DNA of 64,000 nt, from positions 2,771,983 to 2,835,982 of the forward strand of contig NZ_JALAAD010000001.1 of the NCBI RefSeq assembly GCF_022984075.1, written 5' to 3'. Below, one piece after another: positions 24,374 to 36,185 of the stretch. The notes below the pieces were generated by a model. The model made no database searches and was not told the DNA's origin. It worked only from the letters and a program-made list of their open reading frames with translations. The stretch is from Synechococcus sp. C9 (GTDB lineage Bacteria; Cyanobacteriota; Cyanobacteriia; Gloeomargaritales; Gloeomargaritaceae). The position numbers and the translations under genes were made by a program. The stretch's first letter is position 1, and the number at the start of each line of letters is the position of its first letter.

Positions 24374-24430
24374 AGTCATTTTGATTTAGAATGCGACACT
24401 TTTTAGGTATTTGTAATCGCTCTATCTCCT

Positions 24431-24550
24431 GGGAACCTCTATTTATTTGAACCAATCATCAATCCCATCGTGGGAATGCCCATATTACCCAGAACCAAGG
24501 GCGGGGGTGCCCCCCTGCGACCGCTAACTTTGAATTTATAGAGGTGCCCT
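24431..24550 (-). repeat. Palindromic repeat family copy (type 3 ends)
   Basis: GGGAACCTCTATTTATTTGA, CCAATCATCAATCCCATCGT, then an inverted core ACCAAGGGCGGGGGTGCCCC and right end TTTATAGAGGTGCCCT. Highly similar members lie at 53217 and 63855. It sits between the nucleotidase and the AT-rich operon; the rest of 24143-24717 contains no supported gene. Confidence 0.75.
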
Positions 24551-24717
24551 CCTTTTAGGACAGGGTTTTTAAGTAAAAGCGAATGTCGCAAACTTGTTTG
24601 AAACTACTATATCAGTAATCTGGGAATATGCTCAAAATTACGCCACAGTTACAGCCCATTCAGTATTTGCGGGATATGGTTAAACTGCACCCTCGAAAAA
24701 ATGATGATCAACCCGAT

Positions 24718-25158
24718 TTATTGCCTCTGCCATTGGTTACCAGTTAGGACAAATTTTTGGTCATAAACTTCATCATCCCTCGATGAAACCTGCCTGATGA
24801 TTACATTATCTTTAATCGTCCATTTTTCATCCCATCTATTATTTCGATTCAGGTCAATTTTAACACGATTCCAGCGATTGAATCCCGCATCCCGATAAAG
24901 ATTAACCTTGTAGTTACGACCTGGTAGTGCATCCTTGATCTTATCAGTGTTGGCGTTGGGACTCCGGATTAAATCCAAAACCTCCCTATCAACTGTTCGG
25001 AGATGAACGCTCTGAGCATAGGCGGGAGAATTGAACTTAAAAATATAGGACTGATTACTCGGAGAATGTACAATAATTAAGTCGGTTATGAATAGTGCTA
25101 CAAAACTCCCAACAATACCTACAGCACTGTTAACAATACTTGCTCTAGTTAGTTCCAT
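24718..25158 (-). CDS. Small membrane-anchored protein with calcium-loop-like motif (last gene of rSAM operon)
   Basis: A 146-residue protein. Residues about 8-30 are a membrane helix (VNSAVGIVGSFVALFITDLI); an alternative reading is an uncleaved signal anchor with AYAQS at 46-50. The C-terminal half has KVNLYRDAGFNRWNRVKIDL then NRNNRWDEKW: D102-x-N104-x-N106-x-x-x-D110-E resembles an EF-hand/dockerin calcium loop, followed by RQVSSRDDEVYDQKFVLTG. I know this short DxNxN...DEKW block as a recurring motif in bacterial proteins without a firm function. GGAG lies 6 bases before the ATG, itself 3 bases after the last radical SAM gene. It may be the substrate or effector of the operon; this is inference. 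Confidence 0.65.
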   Translation of the reverse strand: MELTRASIVNSAVGIVGSFVALFITDLIIVHSPSNQSYIFKFNSPAYAQSVHLRTVDREVLDLIRSPNANTDKIKDALPGRNYKVNLYRDAGFNRWNRVKIDLNRNNRWDEKWTIKDNVIIRQVSSRDDEVYDQKFVLTGNQWQRQ

Positions 25159-25161
25159 AAC

Positions 25162-26022
25162 CTACTCCTTGATAAACATCATGTTACGTTCAATCGGAAC
25201 AGTACAGTTACAGTAACTGTACAAGCAAGGGCGAGGCGTGTCAAACAATTGTAAAGAACCTGCAAGAATGTTACCTAAATACTCTTTTCGGTAGCGTCTC
25301 GCAGGGTAACACCGCCATGCCTCTCCCCGATCATCTAAGGTAAAATACCTGCTACCAGCCCAACACAATCTTCCCTTAAAATTAAACACTATTTCCTGTA
25401 ATTGATTATGACCACCTAATTTTTTTAATAACAATTCTTCTTCGGGAGAATATTTGATTACTTCACGATCCTGTTTTTCTGGTTGAATCTTAAAGGTAAT
25501 TTGATGTGAGGTAAACCAGTTATGTAAAAACACCAAATGAGGCAAATTATCTCTAGTAGCGACACAGGTCACATTGACACTAGAATGTATGGGTATATGA
25601 GACTGTAACCAATTAATTTTATTGGTAAACTCCAGTAGGGCTGATTCAGTATTGACATACTCTCTATGCAAACTGATAGAAAACACCTTGAGATGATCAC
25701 CTACGGCTCCTAAAAAACTGCTCAGCCTAGAAATGGTGGCAGAAAAGTTAGAAACAATGCTTACATAGTGCCCTAAACTAACAATCCCCGCTACCAATTC
25801 AGTTAATTGCGGATGCAAAAATGGTTCTCCCCCAGATAACTTTATCTCCCATTTACCTGATAATTGAGCAAAAGTTCTCAAGAAAGCCTCTATTTCTCCC
25901 CCCCGTCTCGTTCGATCTTTCAGATGACGTTGTGTACAGTAGGAACAACGATAGTTACACGCTGTATTGATATTCCAGGTAATTACCCCTCCTAAAGATT
26001 CAGCAAAATCCTTACTGTTCAT
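25162..26022 (-). CDS. Radical SAM protein with SPASM-like C-terminal cysteines (rSAM-3)
   Basis: About 286 residues from ATG 26022 (TTG 26028 is possible). The radical SAM 4Fe-4S motif is C22-NYR-C26-SY-C29, followed by the glycine-rich KLSGGEPFLHP. The C-terminus holds a second cysteine set: LCWAGSRYFTLDDRGEAWRC, then LGN, and PCLYSYCNCTVP, expected to bind an auxiliary cluster as in SPASM/twitch enzymes that modify peptides or peptide-like substrates. It is a clear paralogue of the upstream gene, which shares the whole C-terminal signature. The start overlaps the upstream gene by about 11 bases. Substrate unknown. Confidence 0.82.
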   Translation of the reverse strand: MNSKDFAESLGGVITWNINTACNYRCSYCTQRHLKDRTRRGGEIEAFLRTFAQLSGKWEIKLSGGEPFLHPQLTELVAGIVSLGHYVSIVSNFSATISRLSSFLGAVGDHLKVFSISLHREYVNTESALLEFTNKINWLQSHIPIHSSVNVTCVATRDNLPHLVFLHNWFTSHQITFKIQPEKQDREVIKYSPEEELLLKKLGGHNQLQEIVFNFKGRLCWAGSRYFTLDDRGEAWRCYPARRYRKEYLGNILAGSLQLFDTPRPCLYSYCNCTVPIERNMMFIKE

Positions 26023-26854
26023 ATTCAATCATCCCTCGATTAGCAGGTACAGTGCAAGGACAAATGGTATAGGGACAGGGTTGGGAATTATTCCACAATT
26101 TGACACTTTCTTGGAAAACATTACCTAAATAGCCTTCTTTATAACGCTTAGCAGTGCGACAGGACCAAGCATTACCAAACTGGTCTAGGATAAAATAATC
26201 AACACCTGCCCAACATTGATAGCCATAGTAACTAGGAGATAAATTTGCCTGTTTGGAATTTGGTTTATCGCCAATAAGTAGTGGCAAAATCTCTCGGTCG
26301 GATTCGCTATAATTAAATGTTCCTGTTTTAGTCTTTAACCACTGAGGGAAATAAATAAAACCTGCCGACTCGATTTCATTTTTTACTTCTAGTAATTCTG
26401 CCAAAGTTGTGGGCACGAGTACGCTATTGACTACAATTGTTACTTCCTGGGGTAATAAGGAACGTAAGTATTTTAGTTTAGTTAAGAAAGGTTTGAGACT
26501 GACAAATTCACGATGCAGACTCGCAGAAATGATATTAATTTTGTGTCCTATTAGTTTGCAAAATTTTGATAAAGTATGAGGAGAAGCAGATAGATTAGTC
26601 AGTACAGAAATACGATGATTTAGCTGAGCTAACCCAGGTATAACTTGATTCATAAAACCAGGAAAAGCAAAGGGTTCGCCTCCAGACATTTTAATTTCCC
26701 ATTCCCCTTCTAGGTGGCTAAAGAATCTTAAAAATTTATCTATTTCTTCAGATGTAGGATAACCTTGACGATATTTAGGGGATTGGATGCAATAAGAACA
26801 ATTATAATTGCATATTCCATTAGTTTGCCACTCGATGGTGCGCTGACGTTTCAT
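26012..26854 (-). CDS. Radical SAM protein with SPASM-like C-terminal cysteines (rSAM-2)
   Basis: About 280 residues from ATG 26854, which forms an ATGA overlap with the stop of the preceding gene (a longer frame begins at 26884). Motifs: C15-NYN-C19-SY-C22, KMSGGEPFAFPGF, SASLHREF, and the C-terminal block CWAGVDYFILDQFGNAWSC...RYKEGYLGN...PCPYTICPCTVP. The same block is in the next gene, so the two form a paralogous pair. The distance between radical SAM motif and C-terminal cysteines is about 200 residues, usual for SPASM-type enzymes. Reaction unknown. Confidence 0.82.
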   Translation of the reverse strand: MKRQRTIEWQTNGICNYNCSYCIQSPKYRQGYPTSEEIDKFLRFFSHLEGEWEIKMSGGEPFAFPGFMNQVIPGLAQLNHRISVLTNLSASPHTLSKFCKLIGHKINIISASLHREFVSLKPFLTKLKYLRSLLPQEVTIVVNSVLVPTTLAELLEVKNEIESAGFIYFPQWLKTKTGTFNYSESDREILPLLIGDKPNSKQANLSPSYYGYQCWAGVDYFILDQFGNAWSCRTAKRYKEGYLGNVFQESVKLWNNSQPCPYTICPCTVPANRGMIEYEQ

Positions 26855-27885
26855 GTTGACTCTGCCTCCAACCGTTGTTTCCATTTGAAATTCTGATTTA
26901 ACTTACCGCACTGATAACAACTATTAAAATAGTTCCCCCCCCTTAGTCGCTCCCTCAATTCTTGCCACTTTTTACCATACCAATGTTGAGAAAATGGAGC
27001 TTCCGCCAGAGAACCTACCACAACTTCTTTTGAACAGCAGTATAAAATGGTTCCATCCACCGTAATACGACTGTAAACCCAACCCATATAACAACCAATT
27101 GATTCAATCGGGGCAGTTGCTAGAGACCCAGTGGTAACCTGCTGTTCAAATACATCCAAATTTGTTTTTACTTCTAATTTTTTAGCTATATTTTTAGCCA
27201 AGGGAATTAACAGGGTTAATAATTCTTCTCGTTGCTCGTTGCTGATCGTCCAAATCTCAGTCCCCTCTCCTAAACTAGCGAGCTTAAAAGTAATTTGGGA
27301 GGCTTGGTAGTCATGGGCAAATTTGACCATTTCAACTAACTCTCGATAATTTTCATTTATTATTACCTGGACTTGTTTGAATCTCTTTCCTGCTGATGCA
27401 AATTCTCTTAAAATTTCGCACAATCGTTCAAAATCTTTAGGCGTTAAGTTTGGATGAAATGCGGTGTATGATTTGGGAGTAACACCATTTACTGAAATCA
27501 ATAGCATATCTACATTAGATACTAAAACACGTTCTGGATCACACTTTAAGGCATTAGTCAAAACTGTAGTGTGCCAACCGTATGCCTTACATTGAGCAAT
27601 CATTTGGTAAATATAAGGATTGAGAAACGGCTCTCCCATTCCTGATAAAATTATAGCTTGTACAGAGTTCATCCTCGCTATATCCTGTGTGAGAGAATCA
27701 AACATTTCCCAAGACATTTGTTGCTTTTTCCAGCCGTGAGAACGGGGTGTTTTTAGTGAAGGTGAGTGATCCCAACAAGTAACACAATTTGTATTACACG
27801 CATTGGTAATATCAATATGAACTGTTTGTGGCCCAGTGTAAATACTCCCAGTTTTCATACCCAGAATATACAGATGATTTTTCAT
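26851..27885 (-). CDS. Radical SAM/SPASM domain protein (rSAM-1)
   Basis: A 344-residue protein. HIDITNACNTNCVTCWDH carries the CxxxCxxC cluster (Cys30, Cys34, Cys37); ILSGMGEPFLNPYIY is the GGE-like SAM motif (GMGEP); the C-terminal GCYMGWVYSRITVDGTILYC-C and NSCYQCGKLN are SPASM-like cysteines. It differs from the two following radical SAM proteins and is closer to the general 'SGMGEP' SPASM group. The ATG overlaps the glycosyltransferase stop as ATGA, so it is translationally coupled. Function unknown; peptide or sugar modification is inferred from the context. Confidence 0.82.
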   Translation of the reverse strand: MKNHLYILGMKTGSIYTGPQTVHIDITNACNTNCVTCWDHSPSLKTPRSHGWKKQQMSWEMFDSLTQDIARMNSVQAIILSGMGEPFLNPYIYQMIAQCKAYGWHTTVLTNALKCDPERVLVSNVDMLLISVNGVTPKSYTAFHPNLTPKDFERLCEILREFASAGKRFKQVQVIINENYRELVEMVKFAHDYQASQITFKLASLGEGTEIWTISNEQREELLTLLIPLAKNIAKKLEVKTNLDVFEQQVTTGSLATAPIESIGCYMGWVYSRITVDGTILYCCSKEVVVGSLAEAPFSQHWYGKKWQELRERLRGGNYFNSCYQCGKLNQNFKWKQRLEAEST

Positions 27886-29474
27886 ACAGCTTTAATCTCC
27901 TCTCTGCTCAGTTGAAGTGACATTGATAAATTGGCATCAGTTTGGTTCCAGTAGCGATGAAATACACTTAAACCTCGCCATAAACTCTCATGTTTGTCCA
28001 ATAGGGTTTCTAAAAATTGGCTTACAGATGTGACGAAATTCTTATCAATTGAGAGTGGCAAAAGTCTTAAAAAAGATCGCACACCGTTATCATCATTAAA
28101 AGATAATAATAGAGGTAACCATTCTCTAAAAGCTTCGTATACAATTTGATAGTCATGTGCTTCTAGTTTCCATCGTTTTGACCATAACAGCCACCAATCC
28201 CAACCTGTGGTTATCTGTCCTTGAGGCATACGTTCTATAAGTTTGTAAAATACTGTTGCTTTCATTTCACTGTCTTCTAACATTGATAACCCTTGATGAA
28301 CAAGCTCCCAGTCCAATCCTGTTTTCTCTACTGCTTGGCAGAAATCTATAGTTAATAATTCATCAACCTCTTCTAAAAATAGTTTGGGGGCGAGCAAATG
28401 CGTAACTATTTTGGCAGTATCTTTAGCATAGTTTTTAGGTACAAAACTTTTAGCTCTTTGAGAGAGTTCTTCCCTTTTTTTATCATCTTTCATCTGTAGG
28501 ACTAAATTGTCAATATCGTCCAGAGCTAACGCAGCACCTGCTTTTACAGCAGTATTAAGTCGTTTTTGTTGGTCGTCTGCTGTCTTAGATTGACTGTAGA
28601 AGGCGGTAGGGACTCCAACATGAAGAAGTTCATAATAGCTGTTAAAGCCAGCGGCAGAAATTGCCCAGTCTATTCCAGGGAATAAATTAACTGCCAAGGG
28701 ATCATTTAACCAGGTAATGTTTCCTCCTCTGATAGGCGTACCACGGTATAAAATTCCTGCACCAATCACTAGATGTAAATGATGATAACTTTCTAGTTGT
28801 TTGGCGAGACGATTCAATAAATACTCAGCTTGGGAATCTCCGCCGCCGCCAGCACTCAGCCATACGGCTTGTTTCCCCTCGGGTATGCCTAAAATCTTCC
28901 GGGCTTCACTTCGTGATAGTAACTCTTCTCTTTCTCTCAGAAAGATAGGACCAACGATATCGAGTCTGTCTTTTATCTCATCAGTAAATTCTACAGGGGG
29001 TAATTCAGATTCCTTAGGTATAATGATCCGATTGTAATAGGGCAAAAAGTTATATATATCTGCTTCTTCAGCAAATTCCGGCTTTACAGACCGGAGAATA
29101 AGTACCTTCTTCGGGACACTATCAAGAATTTGATATAATTCTCCAAAGGTGCCACAGGGAAAGGTGTCAACAATTAGAAGATCAGGATTAATTAACCCAA
29201 TTGAGTGCCATATCCACTGCCTAGCGAGACGCAAATAATCTTCTTTCACAAGTTTACCTAGTTGCGCTACAGTCTTGCTCGGTATCTTAAAAGTAGCAAT
29301 CCCTTCCTGAGTAGCCAGTTGAATTCCTTCAGAAGATGTGAGCAAGTAGATTTGTGGTTTTATGCCTAACAAATACAGGTATCTTTTTAGCCAGCGTAAA
29401 ATACTACAAAGACGAGTAAGATGTCCTAGTCCAGACCCATTGACTCCATAAGCAACTATTTTACAGGTATTCAT
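27882..29474 (-). CDS. Predicted glycosyltransferase (MurG/GT28-like, COG4671-type)
   Basis: A 530-residue protein. N-terminal VAYGVNGSGLGHLTRLCSIL is the glycine-rich loop of GT-B enzymes; NPDLLIVDTFPCGTFGELY follows. The C-terminal GT domain has VWLSAGGGGDSQAEYLLNRL, LHLVIGAG and the donor-binding region AISAAGFNSYYELLHVGVPT. Residues about 385-530 form an extra helical extension (DFCQAVEKTGLDWELVHQGL...) not seen in MurG. It overlaps the upstream gene by one base (TGATG) and the downstream radical SAM gene by four. Donor and acceptor are unknown. Confidence 0.78.
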   Translation of the reverse strand: MNTCKIVAYGVNGSGLGHLTRLCSILRWLKRYLYLLGIKPQIYLLTSSEGIQLATQEGIATFKIPSKTVAQLGKLVKEDYLRLARQWIWHSIGLINPDLLIVDTFPCGTFGELYQILDSVPKKVLILRSVKPEFAEEADIYNFLPYYNRIIIPKESELPPVEFTDEIKDRLDIVGPIFLREREELLSRSEARKILGIPEGKQAVWLSAGGGGDSQAEYLLNRLAKQLESYHHLHLVIGAGILYRGTPIRGGNITWLNDPLAVNLFPGIDWAISAAGFNSYYELLHVGVPTAFYSQSKTADDQQKRLNTAVKAGAALALDDIDNLVLQMKDDKKREELSQRAKSFVPKNYAKDTAKIVTHLLAPKLFLEEVDELLTIDFCQAVEKTGLDWELVHQGLSMLEDSEMKATVFYKLIERMPQGQITTGWDWWLLWSKRWKLEAHDYQIVYEAFREWLPLLLSFNDDNGVRSFLRLLPLSIDKNFVTSVSQFLETLLDKHESLWRGLSVFHRYWNQTDANLSMSLQLSREEIKAV

Positions 29475-30946
29475 CAGGAAATATCTCCTTCATAGATAGA
29501 ACGTGAAGATTCTCTGCGTCTTATGATGCGCCTTGAGCGTCGCCTAGAACGTCGTCTAGGAATATCATCAGTAATGGTACGTTCCTGAAGGAATTCTGGA
29601 TCAGAGGTGTAATCATCAGGGATTCCACTTTCCTCAAAGGATTCTAAATCAGAGATGTCATCTAAATCTAAATTAGGATCATCATGAGTCATAACTGTCC
29701 ACCAAGGAACATTTTGATTGTAGTCATAGAGTTCATAGTCTCTGAAATTCACAATTGATTCTCTAGCTTGTGTGTAGCGCATGGAATTTTCCCTAATCCT
29801 CTGGGCAGGATTTTTTATCCACATATTTGCATCACTCGCAGGGATGTTCACATCCTGATTTTTTGTGCGAGAGTATTTGGTAATTTTTTTGCGTAATTTC
29901 TGTAATTTTGTTTCTAATTGAGAGATGCGGGGTTGGAATCCTTTTTGTGCTATTTCATCCATATATTCTGCTTTTTTCTCTAGTCCATGCAGACACTTAA
30001 TCATATTGGCAATTTCTGGTTCTGCCTGCGCACGTCTGCATAATTCACTGCGGTCAATATACTGTAAATGATCTTTTAATGCCTGACGACACTGGCGCAG
30101 ATAGACTTCTTCTAAGGTATTGAGTTCTCTAATTACTCTCTCTCTTTGTTTGACATTATCTTCAATAGCTCTTATTTGGGCTTTAATTGGTTCAACAATA
30201 CGATTCATTTCATCTAAGCGACTTCGTAAATCACGATAGTGGTTGGCTACATCGATAAAGGATTTTTGGTTGAACTTCCTGGCTGTCAAAATTGCCCAAA
30301 GCCAATGTTGGTAATAGGTTATATTCCACCACCTCCCGGTGTAAGTATAGCTATTGGTGCCGTAATTACAACGATAGAGGGTCATAAAACGTCTGTCATT
30401 CTCGTAGAGGTTAACCGCTCGCATCAATGGAGAAATCGTTTGGTTATATTCTGCTAGTTGCACTTTTAGTTGTCCACTCGGCTCTACTTCTCTGCGTCTT
30501 TGATACAATTCACTAGTCTCAAGCATCTGCAGTTCGTATTCTAAATTTCTTCTTGTTTGCTCCAAACTAGCGATAGGATTTTCAAAATCAAATCTACTGT
30601 AGCCTGTCAGCGGATTTATTCTGGCAATTACGTCTGGGTCTAGAGATGGCAGATACGAATTAACTAAATTAGAAAGTGTTAGTTGAATATCACTGTTTAA
30701 TTTTCTTTCTGTCTCTATGGTTTCATTATATTCTCGTTTTAGGGAATTTAATAATTCAGCTATTTCTGTTTCTATGCTACGGGCTCTCCTGACAAATTCT
30801 GACCCTCTGACGTATCTATTGGAAAAGTAACCATTACCCCGATTAGTGCCTTCCAAATTCCTGCGGTCACCTCTAGCAGAAGAGCGTAAATATTCAACGA
30901 AAATTCCTATTACAGCAATTAATAAAAAAATAATAATAAATCCCAT
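29474..30946 (-). CDS. Membrane-anchored coiled-coil protein (first gene of rSAM operon)
   Basis: A 490-residue protein with one N-terminal membrane helix (GFIIIFLLIAVIGIFVEYL, residues 2-20) and a mainly helical, charged cytoplasmic part with coiled-coil stretches (about 55-130, 240-370). The middle holds an aromatic patch (YTGRWWNITYYQHWLWAILT). The C-terminus is acidic (DDPNLDLDDISDLESFEESG) then strongly basic (RRRSRRRSRRIIRRR). No enzymatic domain is recognised. It may be a scaffold holding the following enzymes at the membrane. It is AT-rich like the rest of the operon. Confidence 0.7.
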   Translation of the reverse strand: MGFIIIFLLIAVIGIFVEYLRSSARGDRRNLEGTNRGNGYFSNRYVRGSEFVRRARSIETEIAELLNSLKREYNETIETERKLNSDIQLTLSNLVNSYLPSLDPDVIARINPLTGYSRFDFENPIASLEQTRRNLEYELQMLETSELYQRRREVEPSGQLKVQLAEYNQTISPLMRAVNLYENDRRFMTLYRCNYGTNSYTYTGRWWNITYYQHWLWAILTARKFNQKSFIDVANHYRDLRSRLDEMNRIVEPIKAQIRAIEDNVKQRERVIRELNTLEEVYLRQCRQALKDHLQYIDRSELCRRAQAEPEIANMIKCLHGLEKKAEYMDEIAQKGFQPRISQLETKLQKLRKKITKYSRTKNQDVNIPASDANMWIKNPAQRIRENSMRYTQARESIVNFRDYELYDYNQNVPWWTVMTHDDPNLDLDDISDLESFEESGIPDDYTSDPEFLQERTITDDIPRRRSRRRSRRIIRRRESSRSIYEGDIS

Positions 30947-31112
30947 GATGGCTGTCCCGCAAAGTTGTAGTGCATCTTATGATATGCTAGACTTAAAACC
31001 TATAGTAATGTGATTTTTTTACTTTCATTTTAGATTTATTAGATTTAGTGCTTGCATTACAGCCCATTCATAAATTAGTTGAGCATCTACAGAATTCAAA
31101 CCAATGGGTTTG

Positions 31113-31147: not shown

Positions 31148-31162
31148 ATATCTACAATCTTT

Positions 31163-31272
31163 AGGGCACTTCTATTTATTGCCACCACTGGAAGATTATT
31201 TCGCTAAAATTCCTATATTATCGAGAACCAAGACGGGGGCTACGCCCCTGCGACCCATTTTAGAAGTGCCCT
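31163..31272 (-). repeat. Palindromic repeat family copy (type 2 ends)
   Basis: AGGGCACTTCTATTTATTGC at left, inverted core GAACCAAGACGGGGGCTACG, then CCCCTGCGACCC and right end TTTTAGAAGTGCCC. It is the reverse orientation of the copies at 14374 and 50092. Confidence 0.75.
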
Positions 31273-31339
31273 TTAGAGAGTGCAATATCAATACCAGATA
31301 GTGCTATTTACAGTGGTCAAAATTAAGAATAGCGTGCCC

Positions 31340-32211: not shown

Positions 32212-32297
32212 TTTGATTGACTTATTCGTTACGATGTCCTAGGATGTGGTCAACTAAATCTATATGCAATTGTCTGCATGGTGTTAAGGAGTTTAAT

Positions 32298-35200
32298 ATG
32301 CGTCATTTACTTTGTGGCACAGTTTTAGGTGGGTTAATTGTAGTACAAGGTGGGCTAGCGTCTGCCCAACAGATTGTTCCCAACGGGCTAGGGACGCAGG
32401 TAACGGTGAATGGTCAGCAGTTTGACATCACGGGCGGTACGAGGGCGGGGGCGAATCTCTTTCACAGTTTTGCCAAGTTTGGGTTGAGTCAGGCGCAGAT
32501 TGCCCATTTCCTGTCCAACCCGGCGATCCGCAACATTCTGGCACGGGTGACGGGCGGCGAAGTGTCGGTGATTAACGGGTTGATTAAAGTCACAGGCGGC
32601 AATAGCAATTTGTACCTGATGAACCCGGCGGGGATTGTGTTTGGGCAAGGGGCGAGTTTGAATGTGCCTGCTTCGTTTACAGCTACCACTGCTGACCGGA
32701 TTATGTTTCCGGGTGGGAGTTTTAATGCTGTTGGGGTGAATGACTACAGCAAATTGGCGGGGGAACCGATTGGGTTTGCTTTTGACCGCAAAGACCCGGC
32801 GGCGATTGTCAATGAGGGAAATTTAACGGTTAATCCAGGGCAAAATGTGAGTTTGATTGCCGGTCAAGTGATTAATACGGGGACGATTCAAGCATCGGGG
32901 GGGAATATCACCCTAGCTGCCGTGCCTGGGGAAAATCTGGTGCGGTTGTCCCAAGCGGGGCAATTATTAAGTTTGGAATTTAACCCCCAACAAGCCGCCC
33001 AAATAATGGATGGGGAGGGAAATATTCCTACCACTCGTCTGCCGGAATTGCTCACCGGGGGTGGGGTAACCACGGTTACTCAAAATAGCAATGGCACGGT
33101 GAGGGTAGCGGGTTCTAATGTGCAAATTCCTACAAGTACGGGCACCACAATTGTTTCTGGGGCGTTAGATGTTTCGAGTGCGAGTCAAATGGGGGGTAAT
33201 GTGGGCGTTTTTGGCACCCAAATCGCCTTAGTAAACAGTGAAATTAACGCTTCAGGATTTACAGGGGGCGGTGAGATTTTAGTGGGGGGCGAATTTCAGG
33301 GCAAAGGGACGCAACCCAACGCCCAATATACGTTTGTGAGTCGTGATTCTCAATTAACTGCCGATGCGGTTAATGCTGGAAATGGGGGCAGGGTGATTGT
33401 GTGGGCGGACAAGGGGACGGATTTTCGGGGCAGTATCACCGCCAAGGGGGGACAAAACGCTGGGGATGGGGGATTGGTGGAAGTGTCGGGGAAAGAGAGT
33501 TTAAGATTCACGGGGAATGTGGATACGTCGGCACCTAAGGGCAAGACCGGTACCCTCTTACTTGACCCGAAGAATATTACTGTGATTGGTGCTTCCAGTG
33601 CGCCGGATGACAATGAGTTACCTACCATTTTCTCTTCTGAACGTCCAGAGGATAGTTTGACCATCAGCAACAGTGCCTTGCTTTCCCAGTTATCTACAAA
33701 TAGTGTGACGCTCCAAGCAACGAACGATATTGAGTTCAACGCTGATTTGATTGGCTCAGGTAATTTTACCACCCTATCTGCTAATGCAGGCAATAATATC
33801 ACTGCCACGGGTACCATTTCTTTGAGTAATATTGGTATCAATTTTGATGCGGGAAATAGTATTAGTACCGGCAATATCACTGCACGATTTGTTGAGCTAG
33901 ATGCGGGTGGAAGCATTACTACTGGTAATATTACTGCAACATCATTCGTTGACATAGATGCTAATAGTAGTGTGACCACTGGTAACATTAGTTCGTCACA
34001 GAGTTTTGTGTTTGTATTTAACCGTAATGGTGATATAAATCTAGGCAATGTCACATCAGCAGGTCGTGTAGATATTTGGAGCGGTAACTTCTCTCTGAAT
34101 TTTCGAATTGTTCCTCTTCCTGGTTCAAGCAGATTTTTAGAAGTTTTTGAGCCATCTACATTCTATAGTTTTTCCGGTAATGATGGAAATATTAAAGTCG
34201 GTGATGTTACTTCAACAGGTGTTGCGTCATTAGGTACCATTCAAATCAATACCAATGCTAATATCAAGACTGGTAATTTGAGTAATTCAGGTTTTTCGAC
34301 TTCTGGTTTCAAGCTTATTAGTGCTTATGCAGGTGGTACAGTTGAAACTGGTTTTATTGATGCTCGCAATTCTGGTGGTGTCGGTGGTGATGCGTATGTG
34401 ATCAGTCAGAATAGTGTTGTTCGTGTCAATGGCATTGGGCCGACGGGTTTCAGCATTGATGCGAGTGGTTCTGCAGGCGGGGGCGATATTATCATTTTCT
34501 ACGGCGGGTCAAATTCTTTTGCGGTGGGCAGTGCGGCTGTCAATGGAACGGCAGGTGGTATTACAAATGGGCAGTTCTCTATCCTACCGTTCCAACAATT
34601 TAGTTCTCGTCAATTGGGAACTGTGCGACCGGGAATTATTAGAATTGGTTCACCTGAAGGGGAGGAGGCTTTGATTAACCAAATTCTCTTTGGTACACAA
34701 TTTTTCGATCTCGATTTTGATCTAGGTTTAGATGCCATTGAAGACGTGGCATTAGGCGATTTTATCGCCCGTTTTAACATTGCCGAGGCGTTGGGTGCCG
34801 GGAACTTTGCGGCGATTTTGACCCTAGATACCCTATTTACTGGCGAGTTTGATCGCTTTTTGGGAGTCAATCCCATCAACGACTTAAACTCAGTGGAAGC
34901 GATTGGAAATATGCTCAGTCGCTTGGCTAAAGAAACGGGGAAAAGACCCGCCATTGTTTACCTGATGGTAGATGAACGGCAGTTGACGATTGCCGCCATT
35001 CCGCCGGGGAGTCGGGCAGGGATGGCTAGAGCAGGTTTGGTTGCATCCACTACCCCCTTTGCCCAGCGGGAAGCCAAAGTCCAGCCCGTGGTGCGGGGGT
35101 TGCCCGAAGCCAAACGTTCTCAGTTGATGCCGGTGGTAGAGCGGTTCCTCACTGCCCTCAAAGACCCCCGCCAGCGCACCAGCACTGCCTACTTAAAAGA

Positions 35201-36083
35201 TGCCCAGCAGTTGTACCAGTGGTTCATTGCGCCCATTGAAAAAGAATTGCAAGCCCAGGGGATTGATACCCTGCTGTTCTCGATGGACAATGGCTTGCGG
35301 TTATTGCCCGTGGCGGCTCTGCATGATGGCAAGCAGTTTTTGGTGGAAAAATACAGCACGGCTTTGATTCCCAGCGTGAATTTGATTGATACCCGTTACC
35401 GCAACCTGCGGGATAGTCGGGTGTTGGCGATGGGGGCCGATACCTTTGCCAATCAAGCTCCTTTACCAGCGGTACCGGTGGAATTGAAGGTGATTACGGA
35501 GGAATGGCCGGGGCAGTCCTTTTTGAATCAGGAATTTACGGTGCAACGCTTGACCCAGGAGCGATTGCAGGGCGGTTATCCCATCATCCACTTGGCGACC
35601 CATGCGGATTTTGCCCCGGGACGAATAACCAATTCCTACATCGAATTTGGCAACAATCAACGGTTGAATTTACCCCAGGTGCGGGAACTGCCTTTGCGGG
35701 AACCGAATGTGGTGGAATTATTTACCCTGAGTGCCTGTCGGACGTCGGTGGGGGATGTGAGTGCGGAATTGGGGTTTGCGGGTTTGGCGGTGCAGGCGGG
35801 GGTGAAAAGTGCCCTAGCGTCCCTGTGGTATGTGTCGGATGAGGGCACCCTGGCGTTGATGACCGAGTTTTACAAAAATCTGCGGCAGGCACCCATCAAG
35901 GCGGAGGCATTGCGGCAGGCGCAAATTGCCATGTTGCAAGGGAAAGTCACGATTAAAGGGGGTGAATTGCGGGGGGTGCGGGGCGGCATTCCGGTGCCGT
36001 CAGCGATTGCCCAACGGGGGGATCAGGTGTTGAACCATCCCTACTACTGGGCGGCGTTTACCCTCATCGGTAGCCCCTGGTAA
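32298..36083 (+). CDS. Secreted TPS (filamentous haemagglutinin N-terminal) protein fused to a CHAT protease domain
   Basis: A 1261-residue protein from ATG 32298, preceded by AAGGAG. Residues 1-24 are a signal peptide; about 25-150 form the TPS domain that is recognised by a TpsB outer-membrane partner (NGQQFDITGGTRAGANLFHS, FLSNPAIRNILARVTGG, LYLMNPAGIVFGQGASLNVP). A long Asn/Gly/Ser-rich beta-helix follows (to about 850). The last ~300 residues are a CHAT caspase-like domain with His in PIIHLATHADF and Cys in LFTLSACRTSVGD, ending PYYWAAFTLIGSP. Such fusions are common in cyanobacteria. No tpsB gene is in the window. A CHAT peptidase outside the cell is unusual and its target is unknown. 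Confidence 0.9.
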   Translation: MRHLLCGTVLGGLIVVQGGLASAQQIVPNGLGTQVTVNGQQFDITGGTRAGANLFHSFAKFGLSQAQIAHFLSNPAIRNILARVTGGEVSVINGLIKVTGGNSNLYLMNPAGIVFGQGASLNVPASFTATTADRIMFPGGSFNAVGVNDYSKLAGEPIGFAFDRKDPAAIVNEGNLTVNPGQNVSLIAGQVINTGTIQASGGNITLAAVPGENLVRLSQAGQLLSLEFNPQQAAQIMDGEGNIPTTRLPELLTGGGVTTVTQNSNGTVRVAGSNVQIPTSTGTTIVSGALDVSSASQMGGNVGVFGTQIALVNSEINASGFTGGGEILVGGEFQGKGTQPNAQYTFVSRDSQLTADAVNAGNGGRVIVWADKGTDFRGSITAKGGQNAGDGGLVEVSGKESLRFTGNVDTSAPKGKTGTLLLDPKNITVIGASSAPDDNELPTIFSSERPEDSLTISNSALLSQLSTNSVTLQATNDIEFNADLIGSGNFTTLSANAGNNITATGTISLSNIGINFDAGNSISTGNITARFVELDAGGSITTGNITATSFVDIDANSSVTTGNISSSQSFVFVFNRNGDINLGNVTSAGRVDIWSGNFSLNFRIVPLPGSSRFLEVFEPSTFYSFSGNDGNIKVGDVTSTGVASLGTIQINTNANIKTGNLSNSGFSTSGFKLISAYAGGTVETGFIDARNSGGVGGDAYVISQNSVVRVNGIGPTGFSIDASGSAGGGDIIIFYGGSNSFAVGSAAVNGTAGGITNGQFSILPFQQFSSRQLGTVRPGIIRIGSPEGEEALINQILFGTQFFDLDFDLGLDAIEDVALGDFIARFNIAEALGAGNFAAILTLDTLFTGEFDRFLGVNPINDLNSVEAIGNMLSRLAKETGKRPAIVYLMVDERQLTIAAIPPGSRAGMARAGLVASTTPFAQREAKVQPVVRGLPEAKRSQLMPVVERFLTALKDPRQRTSTAYLKDAQQLYQWFIAPIEKELQAQGIDTLLFSMDNGLRLLPVAALHDGKQFLVEKYSTALIPSVNLIDTRYRNLRDSRVLAMGADTFANQAPLPAVPVELKVITEEWPGQSFLNQEFTVQRLTQERLQGGYPIIHLATHADFAPGRITNSYIEFGNNQRLNLPQVRELPLREPNVVELFTLSACRTSVGDVSAELGFAGLAVQAGVKSALASLWYVSDEGTLALMTEFYKNLRQAPIKAEALRQAQIAMLQGKVTIKGGELRGVRGGIPVPSAIAQRGDQVLNHPYYWAAFTLIGSPW

Positions 36084-36084
36084 C

Positions 36085-36185
36085 TATAGCCATCCTACTT
36101 GATTAACAAACAGCAATTCTCCAGAACCAAGGACGGGGGCGGTGCCCCTGCGACCCCTGTTCCATTCTCATTTAGGACTGCTATA
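36085..36185 (-). repeat. Palindromic repeat family copy (type 1 ends)
   Basis: TATAGCCATCCTACTTGATT at left, inverted core AGGACGGGGGCGGTGCCCCT, and ATTCTCATTTAGGACTGCTA at right. It starts two bases after the CHAT stop codon. Confidence 0.8.

Follow-up and report, generated by a model that had tools for sequence, protein, structure and literature searches.

A glycosyltransferase and radical SAM gene cassette of Gloeomargarita with a predicted acceptor serine at the end of a coiled-coil protein

What might a single bacterial operon make with a coiled-coil protein, a glycosyltransferase, three radical S-adenosylmethionine (SAM) enzymes and a small beta-domain protein? The question is raised by a cassette of six minus-strand genes (A to F, positions 24718-30946) in a 64,000-nt stretch of the genome of Synechococcus sp. 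C9 (family Gloeomargaritaceae; contig NZ_JALAAD010000001.1, positions 2,771,983 to 2,835,982), hereafter the window, in whose numbering coordinates are given (Table 1). L and G numbers are our labels for loci and genomes. An earlier note on this DNA had described six AT-rich genes that touch or overlap and therefore must be co-translated, and had read them as a modification or biosynthesis system whose products are held at the membrane. The six open reading frames were found where expected, with overlaps of 1 (A/B), 4 (B/C), 4 (C/D) and 11 (D/E) bases and a gap of 3 bases (E/F), taking inner ATG codons as the starts of D (26854, where the aligned D homologues begin) and E (26022). Such short distances make translational coupling of A-F likely, though not proven. 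The idea of a modification system fits the conserved unit, in which no transporter, protease or recognition element was recognized, whereas the membrane part holds only partially (see below). Judging from the sequences compared here, the main clue is one that the earlier note missed, namely the Ser or Thr at the C-terminus of A and of other proteins encoded beside relatives of B.

The C-terminus of A and the glycosyltransferase B

Searching 84,980 species genomes with a profile of B yielded 82 loci, 80 of which were kept. Apart from the protein of the closest named relative, Gloeomargaritales cyanobacterium VI4D9 (L014; B 96% identical), the members of the A family share 16-28% identity with A of the window. 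The last residue is Ser in 65 and Thr in 1 of the 66 complete family members, a set in which the window itself and close pairs (window and L014, for example) are counted. The third-last residue is Asp in 54, Tyr in 8, Glu in 3 and Phe in 1, that is, most of the proteins end in Asp-x-Ser. Entropy falls to 0.11 bit in the final column and to 0.90 in the third-last, versus at least 2.9 at the other printed positions of the tail. Both serine codon boxes occur at the final position (TCN in 56 cases, AGC in 9), besides ACT (Thr) in 1. For comparison, these loci contain 506 further frames that are 250 aa or longer, some of them spurious, and 41 of these end in Ser. A Trp-rich motif lies 38-97 residues before the end (median 57, 64 proteins). 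In the AlphaFold2 model of A (mean predicted local distance difference test score, pLDDT, 88.1) the helical body is confident and residues 456-490 score below 50; being predicted disordered, the tail could reach into active sites, and would thus resemble an acceptor on a swinging tail. The Gloeomargarita tail is Arg-rich (RRRSRRRSRRIIRRRESS; window 29477-29557) and differs from the other tails seen.

B itself had no match in Pfam, including none to families of the O-antigen-ligase type; some of its relatives match PF04101, a nucleotide-sugar-binding C-terminal domain. The C-terminal half of the B profile aligns to YjiC and MurG, with the Glu/Gln pattern on the donor side kept, and from about residue 371 there is an extra part with weak matches to designed helical repeats only. 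B is therefore probably a glycosyltransferase of the GT-B fold (GT28-like), with a C-terminal extension, as the earlier note had proposed.

B-type glycosyltransferases also occur without A. For 34 distinct ones (scoring at least 100 bits and with upstream sequence; five duplicates, two at contig starts and eight below 100 bits were left out, and L023 and L066 were not assessable), the upstream partner, taken as the conserved frame, ends in Ser (20) or Thr (6) in 26 cases. The bodies of these partners differ and include a protein with an FHA domain (L007, PF00498), a TPM-like protein (L005, by eye, no Pfam match) and small B-box-like, zinc-finger-like proteins (L085-L093, by eye, no firm Pfam match), among others. 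A homologous tail, DFTEAD...MGAS, is common to several of them, and its presence on different bodies suggests that the tail is a portable module. As Thr alone replaces Ser at the end (1/66 in A, 6/26 in the other partners), the hydroxyl group is implicated.

Some side observations concern these A-less loci. Cyanobacterial loci L007 (118-2490) and L008-L010 carry a trio consisting of a lipoprotein-like gene, an FHA protein and the glycosyltransferase, the FHA protein of L007 having a Tyr-rich tail that ends in MGAS (L008-L010 similar by eye). In L085-L093, from Myxococcota, Planctomycetota and other records, tails of the type DFTEAD...GGS or DGT are encoded beside the glycosyltransferase, except in L091. 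L088, L089 and L092 also have a radical SAM gene resembling C in the vicinity.

Radical SAM enzymes, protein F and the predicted reaction

Among the six proteins, Pfam recognized the radical SAM domain in all three of C, D and E, with a SPASM domain in C as well, and nothing firm for A, B and F; NCBIfam and PADLOC gave weak matches, every NCBIfam one lying under its cut-off. The three radical SAM proteins score 39, 38 and 52 bits with PF04055 (cut-off 29.5), and C scores 32.7 bits with PF13186 (cut-off 21.5). The CxxxCxxC motif and further Cys residues are invariant in C (20 aligned rows), as are the Cys residues of the SAM cluster and of the auxiliary-cluster region in D/E (19 aligned rows). 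C, D and E are accordingly assigned to the radical SAM superfamily; D and E, which the earlier note had called paralogues, are 36% identical. Among sequences of the PDB, the profile of C matched PqqE best and also cytosylglucuronate decarboxylase (which we take to be BlsE), BtrN and DesII, while D/E matched cytosylglucuronate decarboxylase, viperin and YydG; SkfB was also among the radical SAM matches. BtrN and DesII act on sugars or cyclitols, and the matched enzymes together span sugar, cyclitol, nucleotide and peptide substrates.

Judged by a simple hydropathy rule, the N-terminal stretch of protein F is hydrophobic in 33 of 39 cases, the other 6 falling just below the threshold, and this stretch is followed by one or two copies (one in the window) of a domain of about 85 aa. 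The model of the domain is a small beta sheet (pLDDT 92-98 in blocks); searches with it returned no convincing relative, and a single precomputed Pfam match was present among the 120 listed of 123 F relatives. In the window the domain contains an acidic loop, DLNRNNRWDE, which could bind calcium, as the earlier note had supposed, and a Tyr motif, LYRD. The hydrophobic stretch of F is consistent with products held at the membrane. For A, which the earlier note had called a scaffold-like membrane protein, a transmembrane-like stretch ahead of the A domain was found in just 2 of 62 A frames, both from Gloeomargarita.

Taken together, these features lead us to propose that B would take a nucleotide sugar in the cytosol and attach the sugar to the hydroxyl of Ser490, the last residue of A. 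That B modifies the C-terminal hydroxyl of A is, as a single step, probable. This would be the core step, since A and B are retained in some genomes where C-F were not detected (see below), with C adding a step and D-E a further one; the radical SAM enzymes would then alter the tethered sugar or its surroundings. F would face out of the cell and receive, display or help to use the product. It is on balance likely that C-E act either on the product of B or on F. The complete scheme, with glycosylation of A by B, elaboration by C-E and F as the outward-facing partner, is put forward tentatively, as a reading that falls somewhat short of an even chance. A more elaborate version is doubtful: B would load a sugar onto A, whose tail would shuttle it through C, D and E until the finished group is displayed via F or handed to it. 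Such a carrier-protein pathway would be unlike any described and, if true, would turn the relatives of B with FHA, zinc-finger-like and TPM-like partners into a general means by which bacteria label the final residue of proteins.

Several points weigh against the proposed scheme. The 26 cases ending in Ser or Thr are not independent, many of the partner tails being homologous to one another, and in some of them other open frames lie closer to the glycosyltransferase. Eight of the 34 glycosyltransferases lack an upstream partner with such an end (L011, L012, L013, L064, L076, L091, L119 and L121), although L011-L013 may belong to another family. The conserved C-terminus of A may be a docking motif, and the substrates of the radical chemistry may be peptides, given the matches of C to PqqE and of D/E to viperin and YydG. 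Lastly, each of the 34 loci with D/E has a Tyr motif (Y-x-D type) in one or more of its F domains (33 counted by script and L014 by alignment; one of the two domains of L028 has Phe), and none of the five without D/E has one, the Tyr being replaced there (RCD/RSD).

This last correlation speaks for D/E acting on F. It lowered our confidence in the scheme slightly, raised that in the first rival below by a little and marginally lowered that in the second. According to the first, C-E would mature a protein, with D/E crosslinking or modifying the Tyr motif of F or a Tyr/Trp-rich segment of A, as SPASM enzymes do with ribosomal peptides, and the step of B would be separate. The matches to PqqE, SkfB and YydG and the Tyr and Trp residues conserved in both A and F are in keeping with it. 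However, the five loci without D/E are related to each other, so that the Tyr difference may reflect ancestry, and the conserved core of the F domain is otherwise kept where C, D and E lack strong matches (L027). Furthermore, no recognition element was matched in Pfam by any of the six proteins and no small conserved precursor lies within the unit. Protein maturation of this kind is on balance rather unlikely.

Second, the Asp-x-Ser end of A could be an unmodified docking peptide for B, for a protease or for a PDZ-like reader, the acceptor of B being a lipid or small molecule. A free conserved C-terminus is typical of recognition motifs, and the third-last Asp is conserved as well; but Thr is the sole substitute for Ser, which points to the hydroxyl, and the gene common to the different partners is the glycosyltransferase. 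We regard this explanation as unlikely, a little more so than protein maturation. A third possibility, that an unusual nucleotide sugar is made by the enzymes and used by B to glycosylate a lipid of the envelope, with A as a structural scaffold only, draws on the MurG-like character of B and on the matches to cytosylglucuronate decarboxylase, BtrN and DesII. It appears improbable: no gene for sugar-nucleotide synthesis, a flippase or a polymerase was seen to travel with the cassette in the neighbour clusters, the sole conserved co-directional extra being a small gene of about 115 aa, and the C-terminus of A would be left unexplained. A viperin-like or Lamassu-like antiviral system, in favour of which stand matches to pVip profiles (E 60, D 41 and C 50 bits) and a weak match of A to LmuB (23 bits), is very improbable indeed: the viperin matches of D/E are confined to the radical SAM core, NCBIfam viperin scores are at most 53 bits against a cut-off of 180, and no defence gene was recognized by eye among the printed neighbour clusters.

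Distribution, gene content and chromosomal setting

Gene order was counted at 53 loci, those in which the B domain is preceded by 1.6 kb or more and followed by 4.8 kb or more. By profiles of A-F, the order A-B-C-D-(D or E)-F is present in 29 of them; of the remaining 24, 12 have B but no A and 7 have A-B, while A-B-C, A-B-F, A-B-F-C, B-C-D-E-F and A-B-C-D-E occur once each. The record titles of the 29 name Cyanobacteriota, Acidobacteriota, Myxococcota, proteobacteria, Planctomycetota, Spirochaetes and Ozemobacteraceae, besides untitled bins; the records are largely metagenome bins, and some taxon names may be wrong.

To place the incomplete loci, D/E, C and F were searched for in 15 whole genomes. 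In 12 of these the cassette is incomplete at the locus; the other 3 are full-cassette controls, in all of which D/E, C and F were recovered. Some of the bins may be incomplete. In the genome of L018, A-B lie at one site and C, D, E and F together on another contig, where the 14 kb around C-F contained no second B and an A match of just 13.5 bits, located in coiled coil; by its gene content this operon is split yet complete. Strong C and F without a strong D/E were found in four genomes (L031, L055, L057, L084), and a strong F with a partial 49-bit D/E match and no strong C in one (L027). In six (L038, L040, L053, L075, L077, L082) F was unmatched and radical SAM matches were weak, partial or absent, the F search having scored 150 of 155-229 candidates in L040, L075, L077 and L082. 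Gene content is thus nested across the 15 genomes (A-B; A-B-F; A-B-C-F; all six), and A-B is likely to be the core to which F, C and D-E were added as layers. The counter-case named in the earlier note, genes that occur separately with unrelated roles, did not refute its reading, as C, D, E and F stay together where the operon is split (L018).

Apparent B-C and D-E gene fusions in GC-rich loci were rejected, the domains of these long open frames lying in different overlapping frames. The small gene of about 115 aa (gene Z, LDGFDPARRVGYEYIT motif) forms a family clustered from 26 loci (e.g. L020 8380-8709, L025 5508-5855); it ends directly upstream of A in 13 of 14 listed cases and is absent from the window, and the one protein tested had no Pfam or NCBIfam match. 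The other printed neighbour clusters beyond A-F were, by eye, largely ABC proteins, kinases and response regulators, along with spurious frames and the partners and neighbours of L085-L093.

Of seven Gloeomargarita genomes, one of them 83% complete, two (G000 and G002) contain B. The two copies, which occupy different chromosomal sites, give a single blastn alignment of 6336 columns at 91.7%, which ends at window positions 24717 and 31038, i.e. at the stop codon of F and 92 bases upstream of the start of A. Beside the copy in the second genome no other alignment to the window longer than 150 bases was found, and the genes that flank the cassette in the window (a nucleotidase and an oxidase-like gene) sit about 1 Mb and 35 kb away in G002. 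Since the block alone is shared, with its flanking genes elsewhere, the cassette appears to act as one unit. Its GC content is 38.5% versus 51.7% in the window, and third-position GC is 0.29-0.36 versus 0.70 and 0.59 in the polyphosphate kinase and 5'-nucleotidase genes (both named from translations). The dN/dS ratios between window and L014 (0.22, 0.07, 0.11, 0.17, 0.12 and 0.40 for A-F) indicate purifying selection on all six genes. In a tree of 69 B domains, the window and L014 fall in a set of eight rows (support 100/99), which also contains four rows from Acidobacteriota, one Gloeobacterales bin and one bin titled Actinomycetota. This placement and the base composition suggest that the cassette was acquired by transfer in Gloeomargarita, which is held to be the cyanobacterial lineage nearest to plastids; phylum changes more than once in the B tree, which is no proof of transfer.

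Copies or parts of a repeat of about 115 bases, probably a miniature inverted-repeat element, flank the cassette (window 24424-24522, 31157-31275 and 36123-36155). Matches are abundant in 4 of the 7 Gloeomargarita genomes (in G000 at least 48, with 40 of 312 candidates scored) and none were found in the other 3; the repeat being common in the genus, a composite transposon was dropped from the evidence. A phage origin was likewise set aside, none of 73 pattern matches for B relatives on viral contigs being confirmed (an absence that says little for or against an antiviral role), as was a plasmid origin, the plasmid search for B giving two partial matches of 25-29% identity. Nearby, a large frame at window 32217-36083 combines, by eye, haemagglutinin-like repeats with a C-terminal region that is CHAT-like, and a DDE-transposase-like frame (L140 6232-6705, by eye) lies about 2.3 kb upstream of the G002 cassette.

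Table 1. Position of the cassette features in the window
Feature	Position	Strand	Description
Gene A	29474-30946	-	490 aa; coiled-coil scaffold, transmembrane-like N-terminal helix in Gloeomargarita; predicted acceptor
Gene B	27882-29474	-	530 aa; predicted GT-B glycosyltransferase up to about residue 370, then a C-terminal extension
Gene C	26851-27885	-	344 aa; radical SAM/SPASM-twitch enzyme; PF04055, PF13186
Gene D	26012-26854 (inner ATG); longest frame to 26884	-	290 aa (longest frame); radical SAM; PF04055
Gene E	25162-26022 (inner ATG); longest frame to 26028	-	288 aa (longest frame); radical SAM paralogue of D
Gene F	24718-25158	-	146 aa; N-terminal hydrophobic stretch and one beta domain of about 85 aa
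Block conserved between two Gloeomargarita genomes	24717-31038	-	blastn
Tail of A, residues 456-490	29477-29581	-	predicted disordered, pLDDT <50
Codon of Ser490, last residue of A	29477-29479	-	predicted acceptor; Ser/Thr end in family

Relation to known systems

In agreement with the earlier note, no described system matching this one was found in Pfam, NCBIfam, PADLOC, PDB sequences or searches of the open-licence literature. A scaffold that is kept together with a glycosyltransferase and three radical SAM enzymes in records of several phyla, and has no known product, represents a gap in enzymology, and a C-terminal Ser/Thr rule, if true, would allow modified proteins to be recognized from their sequences in many genomes.

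Clusters for ribosomally synthesized and post-translationally modified peptides (RiPPs) that use SPASM enzymes resemble the cassette in combining several SPASM/twitch radical SAM proteins and a genetically encoded protein in one operon. The conserved unit differs from them in having no short precursor, protease, transporter or match to a RiPP recognition element (RRE); that is, none of the six proteins had a PqqD/RRE match in Pfam, which divergent RREs can escape, and no short precursor gene lies in the shared block, the flanking short frames being mostly outside it. A or F may be an unusual, long RiPP precursor. STM4011-type and viperin-type proteins are the best NCBIfam models for D and E, but the scores (STM4011: D 55, E 50 bits; viperin: D 36, E 53 bits) are far below the cut-offs of 200 and 180 bits, and the gene neighbours here are others. 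To our knowledge, neither the pilin glycosyltransferases TfpO and TfpM nor the siderophore microcins use a radical SAM enzyme or a MurG-like enzyme on a protein.

In the class IIb siderophore microcins (MccE492, mceCDIJ), modification of the C-terminal Ser needs a glycosyltransferase, and the carboxylate of the Ser is used (PMC7680869). C-terminal Ser modification is thus tied to a glycosyltransferase there, as predicted for A-B. The microcin glycosyltransferase, however, acts on enterobactin, no radical SAM enzyme is named in the part of that account considered here, and acceptance of Thr in the cassette suggests the hydroxyl rather than the carboxylate. The closest parallel lies with TfpO (PilO), which glycosylates a C-terminal Ser, and TfpM, which glycosylates a C-terminal Ser or Thr, the enzyme often being encoded near its substrate (PMC12645811). 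Here, too, a presumed substrate ending in Ser or Thr is encoded beside the enzyme (66/66 for A, 26/34 for the other partners). TfpO and TfpM are periplasmic enzymes acting on pilins, whereas B is of the GT-B type without a membrane-ligase match, its partners are proteins other than pilins, and the cassette has radical SAM enzymes in addition. The cassette is therefore predicted, by analogy, to work like C-terminal Ser/Thr pilin glycosylation, with unrelated genes.

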